A DNA stretch of 64,000 bases from Synechococcales cyanobacterium GL140_1_metabinner_5_sub (GCA_025359065.1 JANYHM010000080.1:1-64000), one strand, 5' to 3'. Shown: positions 13,450 through 21,933, numbered from the stretch's first letter. Program-made: numbers and translations. Notes: a model not told the origin generated them from the sequence alone.

Positions 13450-15162
13450 TTAATAGTGATTGCCAACTCGGCGGTGATGCACTGCCGTCAGGCCCACATC
13501 TTTAGCCACCCGACCGTCGGCCACCGTGGCATAGACAATGTGATGATCATTGCAGGCTAAGCGACTGACAACCTCGCATTCTAAATAAGCCAAAGCATCA
13601 GTGAGAATCGGAATCCCATTAGCAGCCTCTTGAGTTTTGACATTGGCAAACCGATCGGCACCCGGAGCAAATCGCTTCAAAAAGTGGCGCATCAATAGTT
13701 GATAGTTACCTTCTTCTAAAATATTCAGAATAAACTTATCGCCCACCTGCATCAAAGAATCGATCGCCCGATCATTAGCCACCGCGATCGACACCCCCAA
13801 AGGTTCAAAGCTAGCCTGAGTTACCCAAGAAGCCAACATCGCACTGCTCGAATCGCCTTTCTTGGCCGTAATGATGTACAAACCACCGCTAATTCGCCCC
13901 AAAGCCTTATCTAGATCAGAATCCAGCGACTTCATTTGCTTAATCGCCTGATCTTTCGTCAATAACTGGCCCAGGTCAGTCCCGGCTTCTTCGCACTGCT
14001 GATACACCGCCTCACTGGGCACATCTAACACCCGAATCGGCGGGAAAGCAACCACCGCCCCAATTTCTCGGAACCTAGTCAAAATTGGATCCACTGGCTC
14101 ATCGTCACCGCCGTAGGATTCTAGTAACCCTACGGCCTGCTTACCAGTAATCGCCGCTAGCACAGTACCGATCGCCGCCGTCGCAGTCCCGGCTGTAGCC
14201 GGCGGCATCGCAATCACAATGCCAGTACTGCGACCAACAAGTTCTTGCACCTCTTGAGGATCTGAGGCATTCAGATCCATCATTTCTACAGCCACACTGG
14301 TTTTAGTAATACCTCGGGCGATCGATTGAGTCAGCCGATCGCTATAGCCATAGTCTGACACATAAAACACTGCCACCGTGGTTTCGGCCTTGGCCTTCAC
14401 CTGACTCCATTGGCGATAGCGTTCTACCAGCTCCGTGGTGTTATATTTCAACATTGGGCCGTGGCCAGTGCCGATCATCTTGACCTCTGGCAGCTCACCC
14501 ATACGTTTTAAGGCCGAGAGCACCGATCGAGCATTGGGAGCCATCAAACACTCATAGTAAAACCGATAGTCTGGCGAGATCCGCTCCAAATCTTCATCAA
14601 AATCTGCATCAGAGCAATAGTGCAAGCCAAAAGCATCGCAGGTATATAAGATCTGGGTGCCGTGGTCGTAAGTAAAAATGGTATCGGGCCAATGTAAGTT
14701 GGGAGCCATCACAAACTCTAGCTCATGCCCCTGACCCAAATCGATCTTGTCGCCGTTTTTAATGATTTGAGTAGTAAACTGCTGATGGACAAAGTTTTTA
14801 AGAAACTCGATCGCCACTTTAGAACCCACCACCGTAGCCTGGGGAGCTAAGGCTAATATATCTTTCACCAAGCCACTATGGTCTGGTTCGGTGTGGCTGA
14901 TGACTAAGTAATCAATTTTGCCAGGGTCAATCTGTCCCCGCAAAGCATCTAAATAAAGCTGCCGGAACTTTTCGTGGGAGGTGTCAACTAGGGCTAACTT
15001 GTCGCCTTGAATAATGTAAGAGTTGTAGGTGGTGCCATTTTGCAGCCCAAACTCAATATCAAATCGATCGCGTTCCCAATCTAGCGATCGAATGGTGGTG
15101 GTATTGGTGCCGACCGCTGCGGTCTGGATGGTGAGCCGCTTGGTGACTGTTGCTGAAACCAT
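13450..15162 (-). CDS. flv3: flavodiiron protein, Flv3-type
   Basis: Reduces oxygen to water with NAD(P)H or ferredoxin electrons, protecting photosystem I. Three domains: a metallo-beta-lactamase-like diiron domain (1-250), flavodoxin-like (about 265-405) and a C-terminal flavin reductase domain (about 420-570), the cyanobacterial class C arrangement. All six diiron ligands are canonical: H90-x-E92-x-D94-H95, H157, D176 and H234. That fits Flv3 (or Flv2) rather than Flv1/Flv4, which have substitutions. The N terminus (SLDWERDRFDIEFGLQNGTT) is like Flv3. No flv1 partner is adjacent. Flv3 versus Flv2 is my judgement from recalled sequence. Confidence 0.88.
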   Translation of the reverse strand: MVSATVTKRLTIQTAAVGTNTTTIRSLDWERDRFDIEFGLQNGTTYNSYIIQGDKLALVDTSHEKFRQLYLDALRGQIDPGKIDYLVISHTEPDHSGLVKDILALAPQATVVGSKVAIEFLKNFVHQQFTTQIIKNGDKIDLGQGHELEFVMAPNLHWPDTIFTYDHGTQILYTCDAFGLHYCSDADFDEDLERISPDYRFYYECLMAPNARSVLSALKRMGELPEVKMIGTGHGPMLKYNTTELVERYRQWSQVKAKAETTVAVFYVSDYGYSDRLTQSIARGITKTSVAVEMMDLNASDPQEVQELVGRSTGIVIAMPPATAGTATAAIGTVLAAITGKQAVGLLESYGGDDEPVDPILTRFREIGAVVAFPPIRVLDVPSEAVYQQCEEAGTDLGQLLTKDQAIKQMKSLDSDLDKALGRISGGLYIITAKKGDSSSAMLASWVTQASFEPLGVSIAVANDRAIDSLMQVGDKFILNILEEGNYQLLMRHFLKRFAPGADRFANVKTQEAANGIPILTDALAYLECEVVSRLACNDHHIVYATVADGRVAKDVGLTAVHHRRVGNHY

Positions 15163-15292: not shown

Positions 15293-15366
15293 GGCGAGTG
15301 TCGCCAAGTGGTTAAGGCAGCGGCTTGTGGTGCCGCCATTCGCGGGTTCGACCCCCGTCATTCGCC
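15293..15366 (+). tRNA. tRNA-His (GTG)
   Basis: A full cloverleaf. Acceptor GCGAGTG (15294-15300) pairs with CATTCGC (15359-15365); the anticodon loop TTGTGGT has anticodon GTG between GCGGC/GCCGC arms; the T arm is GCGGG-TTCGACC-CCCGT. The extra G at position -1 (15293) opposite C73 (15366) is the identity mark of tRNA-His. CCA is not encoded. Confidence 0.95.
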
Positions 15367-15376
15367 CTCATAGATC

Positions 15377-15410
15377 AAAAAGGACAGAGATAAAACTCTG
15401 TCCTTTTTGT
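15377..15410 (+). terminator. terminator after tRNA-His
   Basis: An 11-bp perfect stem (AAAGGACAGAG 15379-15389 / CTCTGTCCTTT 15396-15406) with a six-base loop and a T-rich tail, starting 12 bases after the tRNA. The flanking A run also lets it act on the minus strand, where it follows nothing closely. Confidence 0.85.
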
Positions 15411-15480: not shown

Positions 15481-15891
15481 CTAGCGTTTTTTGGTGCTCA
15501 ATACTTTGATCTTAGTCACCAAAGCGCCCTTGATTTTTTCGTAGTCAGTAGCGGTGCCGCTGTTAGGTTTAGGGAAAAAGTCTAAAGCGCCTGCTTTCAT
15601 GAGGCTATAGATATTTTCTACATCATTAGGGTGAACAGCATTGCTGATTACCAACACTGGTAAGGGATTTTGAGCCATTAGCTTTTGAGTAAACTCTAAG
15701 CCATCCATAGTAGGCATTTGCAAATCGGTGCAAATTACATCTGGCTTGGTTTGTTCAATTATTCGTAGACCTTCCGCGCCATCACGGGCGGTGCCCACCA
15801 CATCAATTTCTGGTGAAGAATTGAGCAAGCGCTCCAAAACTTCTAAGGCAACGATCGAATCTTCGACTAGTACTACTTTTACAGGGGTCAT
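15481..15891 (-). CDS. CheB-like response regulator receiver, no methylesterase domain
   Basis: A 136-residue stand-alone receiver. The acidic pocket includes D11 and the phosphoacceptor is D56 in VICTDLQMPTMDG; the conserved Ser (VLVISN) and Lys (FFPKP) follow. The ALEVLERLLNSSPEIDVVGTA and ALDFFPKP signatures are those of CheB receivers, yet the protein ends after the domain, without linker or esterase. Last gene of the chemosensory operon: its ATG overlaps the CheA stop by 4 bases. With no methylesterase and no CheR nearby, it probably acts as the CheY-like output or phosphate sink. Confidence 0.85.
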   Translation of the reverse strand: MTPVKVVLVEDSIVALEVLERLLNSSPEIDVVGTARDGAEGLRIIEQTKPDVICTDLQMPTMDGLEFTQKLMAQNPLPVLVISNAVHPNDVENIYSLMKAGALDFFPKPNSGTATDYEKIKGALVTKIKVLSTKKR

Positions 15892-18329
15892 GGCTTGGTT
15901 TTTATTAATGTATTAAGTGTGTTTAACAGCAGAGACTGATCAAAGTCTCCTTTGGTCAAGTAAGCAGATGCACCGGCTCGTAGACCGCGCTGGCGATGCT
16001 CTTCTTTGGCGAGGGTTGTCACCAAAACGATCGGGAGATCTTGGTATGCAGCAATTTCTCGAATACTCTTGGTCATTTCCAGACCAGTCATATTGGGCAT
16101 TTCTACATCCGAAACGATCGCATCGAAAGAGCCAGCCTGTAATTGGTTGAAGCCATCCAAACCATCTACGGCAGCAGTTACGTTATAGCCAGCTTGAGCC
16201 AGAATACGCTGTACCTGCGTCCGAATCGGAGCGGAATCTTCGACTAACAGAATATTGGGTGGTTGATATTCTGTAGTTAGTGACAAGCGGCGCTCAGAAC
16301 TAATCAACTTGCCACCGGCAGCCACGAATAAATCTAATGGATTTAGCACCATACAGATTTCGCCACTGCCTAAAATGCTCGCGCCAGAAATATTTGGGAC
16401 ATTTCTTAAGAGCTTGTTGAGCGCTTTTACTACAATTTGCTGTTGTTCGAGTAGCTCATCTACCAGTATGCCCAAGTAATCCCCGTCGATCTTCATGAAA
16501 ATACAGGGGATTTTTTGCTGGAGTTTAAATATGGCACCAGTAGAACTCGGTGATACTGGCGACAGCTCTAGTAAGTCGGCCAACCAAGCTACCGATACGC
16601 CTCGATCTTGCCAATGAACTGTCAGCTTGCCATCGAGACTGAAGATTTCTTGCCGATCAATAAACTGCATAGACTCGATCGAATCCAGCGGCATAGCGTA
16701 GGGCAACTTTTGCACCTGTAAAATCAGAGCATCTACTGTCGCCAAACTATTGTTCAACAAAATGCGGAAAGTACAGCCCTGGCCAGGAATCGAGTCGATT
16801 TTGATCGAACCCTTGATTTTTTCGATGTTGGTGCGCACCACATCTAAACCTACGCCCCGCCCCGAAATTTCGGTAACTGTAGTTTTTGTAGAGAAACCTG
16901 CCGCAAAAATTAGTGATTGAATTTGATCTGAAGTCATCAGATCTAGCTCAGCTTCGCTGTATAAACTCCGGCGAATTGCAGTTTGACGAATAGCATCTAG
17001 ATCCAAACCACGACCATCATCAGAAATAATAATTTCGATTTGATTGCCGCGCTGCACGCCCCGCAACAGCAGCTTAGAAATTGCTGGCTTGTCGCCCCGC
17101 TGGCGGGTAGGTTCAATACCATGATCGATCGCGTTACGCAAAATGTGAGTAAGAGGATCTTTTAGAGCTTCGATAATTTGCTTATCGGCTAAGACATCAC
17201 CGCCTTCGATCGCAAAATCAATGTTTTTGTCTTGTTGACGACCTAGATCGCGCACCAATCGAGGGAATACCCCAAACACGCTCTGTAGTGGCAACATTCT
17301 AATTTGGCGAATGCCACCTTCTAGATCGGTTGCGACTGAAGCTAGACGAGTGGTATCTTCTGCCGAAGCCACCTGCATGTGGCTCAGAATATTGCCAAAC
17401 TCTTGAAGCTGAGGAATAGCAGCAAAATCAGCACCTTGGAATCTAACCCAGTCTTCCCAGAGACGAGTGAGAGTCATGAGCTGTTCGTGGCGCTGTAGAA
17501 TGCGCAGTTTGGCCACCGCTAATTCATCGGCCTGCATCATCAGGCGCTCTAGCTTGATAGCTTCTACCCGAATTGTGCTAATTTCAAACGTTTCTTTATT
17601 GTCGTGAGGATCTGTGGCAGTGACCTCTGGTAAATCTGCAACCGGAGTTGCTCTATTAGTAACAACAGGGGTTACGGGGGCTTTTTGATTTGCTGCTGAT
17701 TCCGCAGCTAAACTGGCCAGCATGTCTTGAAGATTTGGTAAATCTAGATCGCCACCCTCGGCAAATGCCATGGCCACAGCGGCAGCCGTAGCAGCTTGTT
17801 CTTCTAAAGTTTGCTCATCAAAACCCGGAATTCCCGACAGTGAATCTTCATCAAAGGCCAAAATCTCGGCAAAATCCAGCGTAGTTTCTGGTTCTAGAGT
17901 AGCTACAATATTGCTCTGCTCCGCAGTCTGGTCATTACCAACCATCGCACCACTGGCTTTTACCATTGCTGCTACTACCTGAAATAGTTTCAGATTAGCC
18001 GGTTCGCCAGTAACAGCCTCGTGAGCAATTTTGCCCACGGCATCTAAGCCCTGGTAAAGGCTATCGCAGATTGCAGGGGTGACTTCTAGTTTGCCCTGAT
18101 CGATCGCCATCAGCACTTCTTCCATTTGATGCACGACTGTTTCGGCATCGACTACTCCCAACATGCGGGAGTCGCCTTTGAGAGAGTGGGCATCGCGCAG
18201 CAACGCCTGTAAGGGCGATCGATCAGTAGGCTGTCGCTCTAATTGCAGCAGGCCATTTTCGATCGAAGCGAGGTGTTCGGCACTGGCAGCTTCATATAAA
18301 CTGCGGAGTTCTTCATCATCAATGAACAT
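15888..18329 (-). CDS. CheA-type hybrid histidine kinase with C-terminal receiver, 813 aa
   Basis: Domains in order: HPt (1-110, phospho-His48 in RDAHSLKGDSRMLG), an acidic/Ala-rich linker (about 120-250), a dimerisation helix pair, a HATPase (N box HILRNAIDHGIEP, G1 DDGRGLDLDA, G2 GRGVGLDVVRT), a CheW-like regulatory domain (about 540-670), and a receiver (NILLVEDSAPIRTQ... SDVEMPNMTG). This is the kinase core of the second chemosensory system in the window. It overlaps the CheB-like receiver gene and follows the receptor gene by 33 bases. Built-in receivers on CheA are typical of type IV pilus/alternative systems (PilL-like) in cyanobacteria. Confidence 0.94.
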   Translation of the reverse strand: MFIDDEELRSLYEAASAEHLASIENGLLQLERQPTDRSPLQALLRDAHSLKGDSRMLGVVDAETVVHQMEEVLMAIDQGKLEVTPAICDSLYQGLDAVGKIAHEAVTGEPANLKLFQVVAAMVKASGAMVGNDQTAEQSNIVATLEPETTLDFAEILAFDEDSLSGIPGFDEQTLEEQAATAAAVAMAFAEGGDLDLPNLQDMLASLAAESAANQKAPVTPVVTNRATPVADLPEVTATDPHDNKETFEISTIRVEAIKLERLMMQADELAVAKLRILQRHEQLMTLTRLWEDWVRFQGADFAAIPQLQEFGNILSHMQVASAEDTTRLASVATDLEGGIRQIRMLPLQSVFGVFPRLVRDLGRQQDKNIDFAIEGGDVLADKQIIEALKDPLTHILRNAIDHGIEPTRQRGDKPAISKLLLRGVQRGNQIEIIISDDGRGLDLDAIRQTAIRRSLYSEAELDLMTSDQIQSLIFAAGFSTKTTVTEISGRGVGLDVVRTNIEKIKGSIKIDSIPGQGCTFRILLNNSLATVDALILQVQKLPYAMPLDSIESMQFIDRQEIFSLDGKLTVHWQDRGVSVAWLADLLELSPVSPSSTGAIFKLQQKIPCIFMKIDGDYLGILVDELLEQQQIVVKALNKLLRNVPNISGASILGSGEICMVLNPLDLFVAAGGKLISSERRLSLTTEYQPPNILLVEDSAPIRTQVQRILAQAGYNVTAAVDGLDGFNQLQAGSFDAIVSDVEMPNMTGLEMTKSIREIAAYQDLPIVLVTTLAKEEHRQRGLRAGASAYLTKGDFDQSLLLNTLNTLIKTKP

Positions 18330-18362
18330 ATTAGCGACTCAACGGTTTTCAATATGACGGTG

Positions 18363-19694
18363 TTAAACAATCCCTTGTAGTTGATTGGTAGTGTTAACTA
18401 AATCATTCGTAGCTTTTTTCACTTGGGCAACCCCAGAAGCGGTTTCTTGAGAACCCAAGTTGATGGCGTTAATTGCCGCAACTGCTTGCTGTACCGTAAT
18501 CGCCTGCCGCTTGGAGCTAGACGAAATTTCTTGAGTGTTGGTAAACACCTCGTTAATTGACCGTTCAATACCAGCAAACGCTTCGGCAGTATCGATCGCT
18601 AGGGTAATGCCTCGGGCAGCAGTTTTGGTTCCTTCATCTGTCACCATTACCGTACTGTTAATCGAAGCTTGTACTTCAGAGATTAGGGTGTTGATTTTTT
18701 CGGCAGACTTTTTACTTTGGTCGGCCAGTTTCCGTACTTCACCCGCTACTACGGCAAATCCTTTCCCTTGTTCACCGGCACGAGCTGCTTCTACCGCTGC
18801 GTTTAGCGATAGCATGTTGGTTTGGTTGGCAATATCGGCCACGAGGTCAGATACCGAGGCAATCTGAGTAGTTTGTTGACTGAGCTGCATGATTTTTTCG
18901 GCGATCGCTTCTACTCTGGCACTGAGGTCGGTAATACCTTCAATGGTACGAGATACCGCTTCTGAGCCAGTTTCGGAGAGCGTCAATGCTTTTTGAGCCT
19001 CAGTTGCGGAGTTTTCTGCTCTCATTGCGGCCTGCATCGATGCCGAACCCAATTCTTCAATTGTGGCGGTAGTAGTTCGTACCGAATCAGCTTGTTCCAA
19101 AAGCTGAGATTCTTGTTGGCTAACAGTTGCCGCAATTTGCTCTGAAGATTTAGATACACTATTAGTAGAATCAGTCAAAACTTTAGAGATGCTTTGAATA
19201 ATTAATCCCATGAAGGCCAACGCCAACAGGTTAATAAAGGCCGTAGTTAAAGCTACTAAGCGCAAGTTGGCAACGTGAGCTTCGCTTTTGCCTTCTTCTG
19301 CGGTAGCCAGTTTGCTGGAATCTGCAAAAAAGATTTGGGCAGCATCAACCAAATCGCCCAGTAGTCGTGGGTTGGTTTGGTATTCAGCACCGATTGCCTG
19401 CATTTTAGCAAAATCAACCTGTAGTTTTTTGGCAAGATTACTAATAGCTACATCATCTTCTTTGACCATAATGGCCAATAGCTGATTCATAGTGCTGACA
19501 ACTTCGTCAGTTTTGCGACCAGCAACTGCGAGAGTAGCAAATCGTTGTGATCCCCCCCGGAGCGCCCCCGCATTGTTCAGAAATTTCGCATCGTTGGTCA
19601 TTTGTCCTACCCCAGACTGAATGACGGCGGTGCTGACAACAGTAAGGCCGATTAATCCGGCAACAGCAAATTTAAGGCGAGTGGTAATTTTCAT
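18363..19694 (-). CDS. methyl-accepting chemotaxis protein, PilJ/NarX-like sensor, 443 aa
   Basis: An N-terminal membrane helix ([20 protein letters not shown]), a short periplasmic domain of about 115 residues, a second helix (about 147-167, [19 protein letters not shown]), then the cytoplasmic signalling coiled coil with the conserved hairpin tip ([21 protein letters not shown], around residue 300). The periplasmic [14 protein letters not shown] segment resembles the PilJ/NarX type helical sensor motif (GxxRxxSQR). I see no clear HAMP domain. Third of five genes spaced by 31-33 bases. The ligand is unknown. Confidence 0.92.
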
Positions 19695-19725
19695 GATCTT
19701 GTGATTTTTAGGTAGAAGGTTAGAA

Positions 19726-20757
19726 TTAAGCTATTTTTAAAAGCTGAGGCAGGTTAAGGACACTCAGCATCGTGTCACGGTAAGGGGTGGTGCTCTCTAT
19801 TAAGCCGATGCGACTCTGCTGATTAGCCACCGGCACCACTGCAAAAGCTGAGCGATCAATATACAAAATATCGTGGAGTTCGTCGATCGAGAGACCAGCA
19901 ATCACATCACCAATTTGAGTGACTACTGCTTGGCTACTGGGGACAGTAGCGATCGGCAGATTCAGGGCAGGCCGCATATCTACCAAGGTCATGATTTCGC
20001 CCCGCAAATTCATGTTGCCGATAATTTGGCTAGGAGCACAGGGAATAGGCCGAATATTTTGGGTATTAATAAACTCCCGCACCAAGGCGAGGCTGATACC
20101 AAAGTATTCCCCGCCCAAACCAAAAACTGCTAGTGGCACAGCCTGACTGTTATCACTAGCTTCTACGGCAGGGCGTAAACTGGCTGCTCGTTGGCTCATG
20201 AGCTGACGCTCTACCGCTGTTGCTGTCGGAAAATACAGGTCGTAGAAACTACCAATTTTCTCGATCGGCACATCGGTCAACAGACCACCGGTTTCATCGG
20301 CCTGCCAGACCCAGTCGGCCACTTCGTCTGGTAAAGAAACTAAGGCATCGGGATTTAAAATCAATAGGTTTTCATCACCATATTGGGTAACACCACTCAA
20401 AAAAGCAGTGTTGGTATGACCTTGGCGGCCATAGGCTAAGTCTCGATCAATGGCTAGTTCATCTAAAACACAGACTTCACTCACTCGATCGACAATGGCA
20501 CCAATTTGGAAACCACTACAATCCAGTACTATTACGGTGTCAGATGCAGTACAGACCAAGGGCGCTCTACTGATACGCCGTCGCAGGTGCATTACCGGCA
20601 GCATTTTACCCCGTAGGTTAATCATGCCCAGCAAATCTGCGGGAGTTTCGGGCACTATTTGTAGTTCGGGCAATGGAAAGATTTCTAATACATGATCGGT
20701 AGAAATCGCGTAATGGGCATCCTGTAAGTGACAGGTGAGATAAGATTGCTGACTCAT
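19726..20757 (-). CDS. double CheW-domain protein, 343 aa
   Basis: Two CheW-like SH3-fold domains in tandem. The first (about 1-165) has LPLPELQ-type text as [20 protein letters not shown] followed by [13 protein letters not shown]; the second (about 205-343) has [20 protein letters not shown] and [10 protein letters not shown]. It couples receptor to CheA, and two docking domains in one chain could crosslink array units. Most cyanobacterial systems use single-domain CheW proteins, as does the hmp locus here. Located between the PatA-like regulator and the receptor, with 31-33-base gaps. Confidence 0.9.
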
Positions 20758-20790
20758 AAGCCGGGGTAGATGTTTAAATAATTAATGAGA

Positions 20791-21933
20791 TTAATGGGCA
20801 ACGGCTTTGACAATGTATTTTTCTAGCACCGGCAGCAGCTTCTCTCGATCAACTGGCTTATTTAGATAATGAGTAGAGCCAGCAAACTGTCCTCTCATTT
20901 TGTCGATTAATCCATCTTTGGCAGTGACCATGACGATCGGGAGAGTTTTAAATTTACCAATGTTGCGAATAGTGCGACATAGTTCTAAGCCATCAATATC
21001 TGGCATAGTTACATCTAGTAATAGCAAAGCTATCGGCATAGCGTTCAGAATATGCAGGGCATCCATGGCATTGCTAGCAAACTGCACGTTATACAGATCA
21101 CCTACAGCCTTGCGGATACTAACCTGGACGATTTTGCTGTCATCTACACTTAAGATAATTGGTCGCGTATCTGTTGCGGTGGCCTTGGAAGAATTAATTT
21201 CACCGGTTTCATTGCTATTACGCAAGTGAATCCATTTATCTTGCGACCACCTGAGATAGGCTTGGGCTAATTGCAGGGGGTCTTCACCGCAACCTCCGGC
21301 AATTTCAGAGAGTTTGAACTTGCCCGATGCCCATTTGTTTAAATGTGGTAGTATATTTTCCGAAATATTTGCTGCTTCTTCTAGGCGAATAATAGGGATG
21401 GTATTTAATGAAATTTGGGGTGCCAGCTTTCGCCACATTTGCTGACGACCAATAAAGACTTCTTCAATTTTGGCCAAGTCTAAACCGCGATGATTTTCGC
21501 CATAGGACAAATCAAATTCGCTATGGGTGCGTTCAACTAAGGTGCCACTATAGGGTGATACACATTCAATGATGGTGGCAATCTCCATTTGCATGGCGGC
21601 TTCTAAGTCTTCCCAGCGCACCAAGCCAAATCGGGCAATGAATTCTACTAGTTCTCTTAGAGAGTCTTCGTTTTTGGTACGAGTTGAGACAATTTTAAGA
21701 GTAGATTCTAAATGCTTGAGCTTCATGCGTTTCCGCATCCAATCAGCAAACTCCAGAGGGCTAGGAATTCTTTTACCGGCGTAGGTAACTTCGCCCTGCT
21801 TAAAGGCAAAGCTATATTGCAATGGCTGCTGCCGATCGGTGATGCCATCAAAGTCCGTAATGCCAGTAAAACCTTCTGCTTTAATTTGTTTAAGGGACGC
21901 TATTAAACCATTTGCTTTAACTTGTAATACCAC
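20791..21933 (-). CDS. PatA-like response regulator (PATAN/DUF4388 + receiver), 380 aa
   Basis: The N-terminal ~250 residues match the PATAN/DUF4388-containing region of cyanobacterial PatA/PixG/PilG/HmpA-type regulators (IKAEGFTGITDFDG, YSFAFKQGEVTYAGKRI). The C-terminal receiver (about 255-378) begins ILSVDDSKIV and has LLLLDVTMPDIDGLEL as the phosphorylation site and LNKPVDREKL. These regulators are outputs for pilus motility, phototaxis or heterocyst patterning. First gene of the five-gene operon, 297 bases from the divergent DUF4336 gene, so the operon promoter should lie in 21934-22230. Confidence 0.9.
   Translation of the reverse strand: MVLQVKANGLIASLKQIKAEGFTGITDFDGITDRQQPLQYSFAFKQGEVTYAGKRIPSPLEFADWMRKRMKLKHLESTLKIVSTRTKNEDSLRELVEFIARFGLVRWEDLEAAMQMEIATIIECVSPYSGTLVERTHSEFDLSYGENHRGLDLAKIEEVFIGRQQMWRKLAPQISLNTIPIIRLEEAANISENILPHLNKWASGKFKLSEIAGGCGEDPLQLAQAYLRWSQDKWIHLRNSNETGEINSSKATATDTRPIILSVDDSKIVQVSIRKAVGDLYNVQFASNAMDALHILNAMPIALLLLDVTMPDIDGLELCRTIRNIGKFKTLPIVMVTAKDGLIDKMRGQFAGSTHYLNKPVDREKLLPVLEKYIVKAVAH

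Follow-up and report, generated by a model that had tools for sequence, protein, structure and literature searches.

An apparently undescribed cyanobacterial chemosensory operon with a stand-alone CheB-type receiver and a probable role in type IV pilus control

The five genes and their products

Based on open reading frames and domain searches we identified five chemosensory genes, all on the minus strand, between positions 15481 and 21933 of a 64,000-nucleotide stretch of DNA (the window) from Synechococcales cyanobacterium GL140_1_metabinner_5_sub (GCA_025359065.1 JANYHM010000080.1:1-64000). In the order of transcription they encode a PATAN-type (PatA-like) response regulator (20791-21933, 380 aa, GTG start, Pfam Response_reg), a double CheW adaptor (19726-20757, 343 aa, two CheW stretches in Pfam), a chemoreceptor or MCP (18363-19694, 443 aa, Pfam MCPsignal), a CheA-REC kinase (15888-18329, 813 aa, Pfam Hpt, HATPase, CheW and REC) and an esterase-free CheB-type receiver (15481-15891, 136 aa, Pfam REC only). 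The first four genes are separated by 33, 31 and 33 nt, and cheA overlaps the gene of the short receiver by 4 nt. A five-gene operon had been proposed in a preliminary description made from the sequence, and it proved real, as the reading frames, the gaps and overlap and the Pfam and NCBIfam matches agreed. A chance operon was ruled out, because the sister species (G291, locus L168) keeps exactly these five genes together with their flanking genes, with dN/dS values of 0.03-0.17.

Between the end of the operon and a tRNA-His gene lies a terminator-like hairpin of 14 pairs with a T run on both strands (15376-15409, not assigned to either strand), found by inspection of the sequence, which is a probable bidirectional terminator for the operon and the facing tRNA gene. 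The tRNA-His gene (GTG anticodon) and the shared hairpin together take up 15294-15409. The operon is adjoined by a gene for a flavodiiron protein with a metallo-beta-lactamase core and a flavin reductase domain (13450-15162), which is kept in the sister species and not in more distant relatives. A promoter scan gave sites no more numerous than in shuffled sequences.

The PATAN-like region of the first gene product covers approximately residues 1-242 (21208-21933, minus strand). Compared by hhalign with the PATAN-type regulators of the other clusters of the genome, this region alone gave a probability of 98.2% (E 5.7e-14) and the whole protein an E-value of 3.4e-43. Pfam DUF4388 was matched directly by two of those regulators and weakly by the window's regulator (E 0.099). 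With the receiver residues D264/D265, D307, T337 and K359 present as well, the protein has both parts of a PATAN response regulator, an N-terminal PATAN domain and a REC domain. CheA consists of a single Hpt domain (H48), dimerisation, ATPase and CheW domains and a C-terminal REC (D741). The phosphotransfer residues of the operon are intact, including H48, the ATPase boxes and the D/K/T-S sets of all three receivers.

The receptor is predicted to cross the membrane near residues 7-29 and 141-170, and its signalling hairpin reaches the C terminus; no HAMP domain was detected in it. A PilJ-type periplasmic sensor region was located at approximately residues 31-113 (19356-19604, minus strand). 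The window's receptor alone matched PF13675 (PilJ) weakly (E 0.0025), and all 14 of its 14 relatives matched this family, with a best E-value of 1.7e-9. The best solved structure for a profile of these relatives was PilJ of P. aeruginosa (E ~1e-7). Of the earlier designation as a PilJ/NarX-like receptor the PilJ part can be kept, and the likeness to NarX goes back to a short P-box-like motif only. Between congeners the sensor region (residues 1-170; 19185-19694) was 65% identical, in comparison to 90-97% for every other domain, which suggests that the ligand changes fast.

NCBIfam CheB models matched the short receiver over residues 2-135 of its 136, which corresponds to the receiver half only, and its best NCBIfam and PDB matches were CheB receivers. 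The methylesterase domain PF01339 was absent from this protein and from the genome, and the protein is classified here as a CheB-type receiver and not as a CheB methylesterase. Its residues E10, D11, D56, S83 and K108 are intact. Across distant relatives the short receiver was 67-73% identical to that of the window, in comparison to 43-52% for CheA, and within the same operons its mean pairwise identity was 74%, against 69% and 62% for the other two REC domains. The conservation continues into the helix LITKIKVLASK, which in CheB leads into the linker. Between congeners dN/dS was 0.029 for the short receiver, 0.074 for the double CheW, 0.091 for the PATAN-REC regulator, 0.095 for CheA and 0.166 for the receptor, values that show purifying selection. 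The short receiver is the slowest-evolving and most conserved component of the operon, and it looks like a copy of the receiver of the operon's own CheB.

Genome context and distribution among cyanobacteria

The host genome (3.92 Mb, 99.8% complete) contains six CheW-bearing clusters. The operon had been described as a second chemosensory operon; it is indeed a distinct one, whereas the implied count of two is too low. An hmp locus lies at 38-49 kb of the same window, with HmpF divergently placed. The order PatA-CheY-CheW-MCP-CheA is found in three other clusters (C51, C111 and C66), and a diverged version of it in a fourth (C91). Among the six, the order PatA-CheW2-MCP-CheA-REC was found in the window's cluster only, in line with the earlier remark that the layout differs from those of hmp and pix. 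The receptors of two other clusters of the genome carry GAF domains, four in one (L081, 9007-12327) and one together with dCache in the other (L079, 6558-9338), and are candidate PixJ-type photoreceptors.

Six-frame searches of the 99.8%-complete genome gave no CheR and no CheB methylesterase, so the absence previously noted for the operon extends to the whole genome, and receptor methylation is not expected in any of the six pathways. Likewise, no CheR or CheB was found in the genome of the sister species. Despite this, the receptor keeps one canonical methylation-site consensus of ten letters (residues 209-218; 19041-19070, minus strand; consensus as in PMC12632253), and the loss of methylation may therefore be incompletely explained.

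Of 291 genomes of the class, 78 contained a double CheW of the same family as that of the window, and stand-alone short receivers were present in about 33 of the 390 sampled genomes, as read from the table. No full CheB scored above 192 bits, whereas complete stand-alone copies reached 240 bits or more, with the exception of a diverged tandem pair in genome G198 (172-174 bits). The gene-neighbourhood survey that the preliminary description had suggested showed the five-gene order to be no private oddity of this genome but common to many cyanobacteria. The relatives have one of two layouts, either with the PATAN gene and the short receiver, or with neither of them and with CheR and a full CheB. 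Four loci (L040, L042, L048 and L060) contain the same five genes in the same order as the window, but retain an upstream CheR and a downstream full CheB (CheR-PATAN-CheW2-MCP-CheA-short REC-full CheB), and a fifth (L075) has all of these genes with CheR last. The state without CheR and CheB was seen again in G198 and in G063.

Some genomes (G169:C57 and G162:C5; loci L039 and L044) have a pair of double-CheW clusters tens of kilobases apart, of which one has the layout with CheR and CheB and the other the layout without them. The short receiver is found in tandem duplicate within one operon at L047 (3117-4172) and L040 (4002-5075).

Ancestry of the operon

In a maximum-likelihood tree of CheA, all 50 cyanobacterial CheAs linked to a double CheW formed one clade (100/100), which was the sister group of sequences from Niveispirillum and Methyloversatilis (100/95) and stood apart from the Hmp/Pix-type CheAs of the same genome, from ChpA, a long branch in this tree, and from WspE. 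When joining with the genome's own Hmp/Pix-type CheAs was forced, the AU test gave p 0.062, which favours separation from these without proving it. The Niveispirillum cluster, CheW-CheR(TPR)-CheW-MCP-CheA-CheB, is colinear with the cyanobacterial operons. Clusters with CheR-TPR are mainly of the ACF family (PMC3447774), and the Niveispirillum-type proteobacterial cluster looks like a member of it. The operon descends from operons with CheR-TPR and CheB, which were probably of the ACF family. The CheA of the window is related to those of CheR-TPR, ACF-like clusters in a tree that held no curated ACF reference set; a CheR-TPR is absent from the window's cluster and present in related operons, and the PATAN-REC protein is a multidomain response regulator, a trait of the ACF class.

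When gene presence was mapped on the CheA tree, a single change of state sufficed for the PATAN gene and likewise for the short receiver, whereas the CheR of the operon needed six and its CheB five. Because of the order of the outgroups, the latter changes are best read as losses, and CheR and CheB would have been lost repeatedly. All loci with a short receiver fell into one clade of the CheA tree (100/99). By contrast, a tree of the receivers placed the short receivers from another genus in this family inside that genus's own CheB, and a single origin of all short receivers was rejected at p 0.012 for a group that was chosen after the tree had been seen. Either the short receiver would have had two origins, or it was overwritten by gene conversion from CheB. 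Two loci of that other genus (L170, 9527-11387; L173, 9520-11270) have the short receiver beside their own full CheB.

Horizontal transfer of the operon into the genus is not claimed: the tree sets the window apart from its own family, but monophyly of the family was not rejected (AU p 0.259).

Comparison with known systems and possible output

The Synechocystis tax2, tax3 and pix (tax1) clusters and Nostoc hmp resemble the window's operon in that PATAN-REC, CheW, MCP and CheA-REC are clustered, two stand-alone regulators are present and CheR and CheB are not needed (PMC5812497, PMC12288463). The window's operon differs from them in a second receiver that is CheB-type and comes last, in its doubled CheW and in a CheA placed outside the genome's own Hmp/Pix group (AU p 0.062, as above). 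With the Pil-Chp system of Pseudomonas and Acinetobacter it shares a PilJ sensor domain, CheA-REC, two regulators and, presumably, type IV pili as the target; unlike that system it has a PATAN domain, a lone CheB receiver, no PilK or ChpB, and one Hpt domain instead of many. A multi-Hpt CheA with a C-terminal REC is a frequent, though not universal, trait of the Tfp class (PMC10782961), and the CheA of the window has the REC and a single Hpt. The ACF-type clusters of a Niveispirillum cyanobacteriorum plasmid (L167) and of Methyloversatilis (L084) have CheAs in the sister clade, and L167 is colinear over CheR-CheW-MCP-CheA-REC-CheB; however, both are without a PATAN gene and a short receiver, and L167 keeps a full CheB and CheR. 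The Wsp system was set aside, as the operon contains no GGDEF domain and WspE lies elsewhere in the CheA tree. Phage and plasmid records were drawn on solely as a source of reference CheA, Wsp and Pil clusters. Two records labelled as phage (L184, OQ572403.1; L185, CAKLQH020000002.1) carry bacterial Wsp and Pil-Chp clusters and are probably mislabelled or contaminated.

In the literature searched, mostly without subscription journals, we found no matching gene order and no operon of this kind with a stand-alone CheB receiver. A characterised cyanobacterial locus that agrees in both order and phenotype, which according to the preliminary description would have spoken against its proposal, was likewise not encountered in these sources. 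The operon appears to represent a separate and so far undescribed chemosensory lineage of cyanobacteria.

We lean towards a self-contained, ACF-derived phosphorelay, complete in its parts, that was rewired to serve type IV pili; its output would be the PATAN protein and its second regulator the CheB-type receiver. The PilJ-type membrane receptor, coupled through the double CheW, would control the one-Hpt CheA, and phosphorylated CheA would pass its phosphate to three receivers, namely its own REC, that of the PATAN protein and the stand-alone CheB-type receiver. PATAN domains bind PilB in Synechocystis, the pilus systems of Pseudomonas and cyanobacteria use two regulators, and PilG is held in check by PilH, which reduces PilG phosphorylation (PMC10519157, PMC12288463, PMC12632253). 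By analogy, output would likely pass through the PATAN regulator, which would act on the extension motor PilB as PixG and PixE do. The CheB-type receiver, a copy of the CheB of the operon minus the esterase, is likely an antagonistic or restraining regulator like PilH or PixH, and with receptor methylation lost it may limit the phosphorylated PATAN protein or the activity of the kinase. In favour of a pilus role, the host genome encodes PilB/PilT-type ATPases of type IV pili, and the window itself carries the hmp locus with HmpF. Recurrent neighbours other than che genes that would hint at an output or at pili were not found beyond close relatives. Of the earlier suggestion of an extra pilus, phototaxis or development-control pathway, control of type IV pili is probable and development control found no support in this analysis. 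Counting against the pilus reading are the weak direct Pfam match of the PATAN region and the nearest proteobacterial relatives, which are ACF-like and not pilus systems.

It is equally possible that the short receiver serves as a phosphate sink, or that its target is the array and not the motor. As a general account, a receiver that mainly drains CheA to end the signal and has no specific partner beyond it seems unlikely to us: a protein with neither esterase nor output domain, an intact acceptor site and an overlap suggestive of co-translation with cheA would suit this role, but CheA already has its own REC, the conservation of the short receiver above the other two RECs and into the LITKIKVLASK helix suggests further contacts, and the sink idea has been disproved for PilH in P. 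aeruginosa (PMC10519157). We consider it similarly improbable that the operon is an ACF pathway, Wsp-like in principle, which governs aggregation, exopolysaccharide or gene expression and not the direction of pili. The sister position of its CheA, the colinearity with a CheR-TPR cluster and the presence of a multidomain regulator favour such a role, whereas WspE does not group with the window's CheA and a GGDEF or DNA-binding output is missing, the only multidomain regulator being PATAN-REC, of a class tied to PilB. The repeated losses of CheR and CheB could also mean that adaptation has gone and the system is on its way out. Such a decaying remnant is very improbable and largely refuted by the selection estimates, with low dN/dS in all five genes between congeners and every catalytic residue intact.

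Returning to the rewired pilus pathway, we tentatively propose an order of events, which we regard as possible but doubtful. The receiver half of CheB would have been duplicated, possibly twice, without the esterase and come under the strongest constraint in the operon; it would have taken over from methylation the feedback or reversal function in pilus steering, and CheR and CheB would then have been dropped repeatedly. In this lineage an ACF-like pathway that adapted by methylation seems to have given way to one of the pilus type that lacks such adaptation. The series of species with both CheR and CheB, one of them or neither is a natural experiment on a chemosensory array after the loss of adaptation, and makes the role of the stand-alone CheB receiver directly testable.
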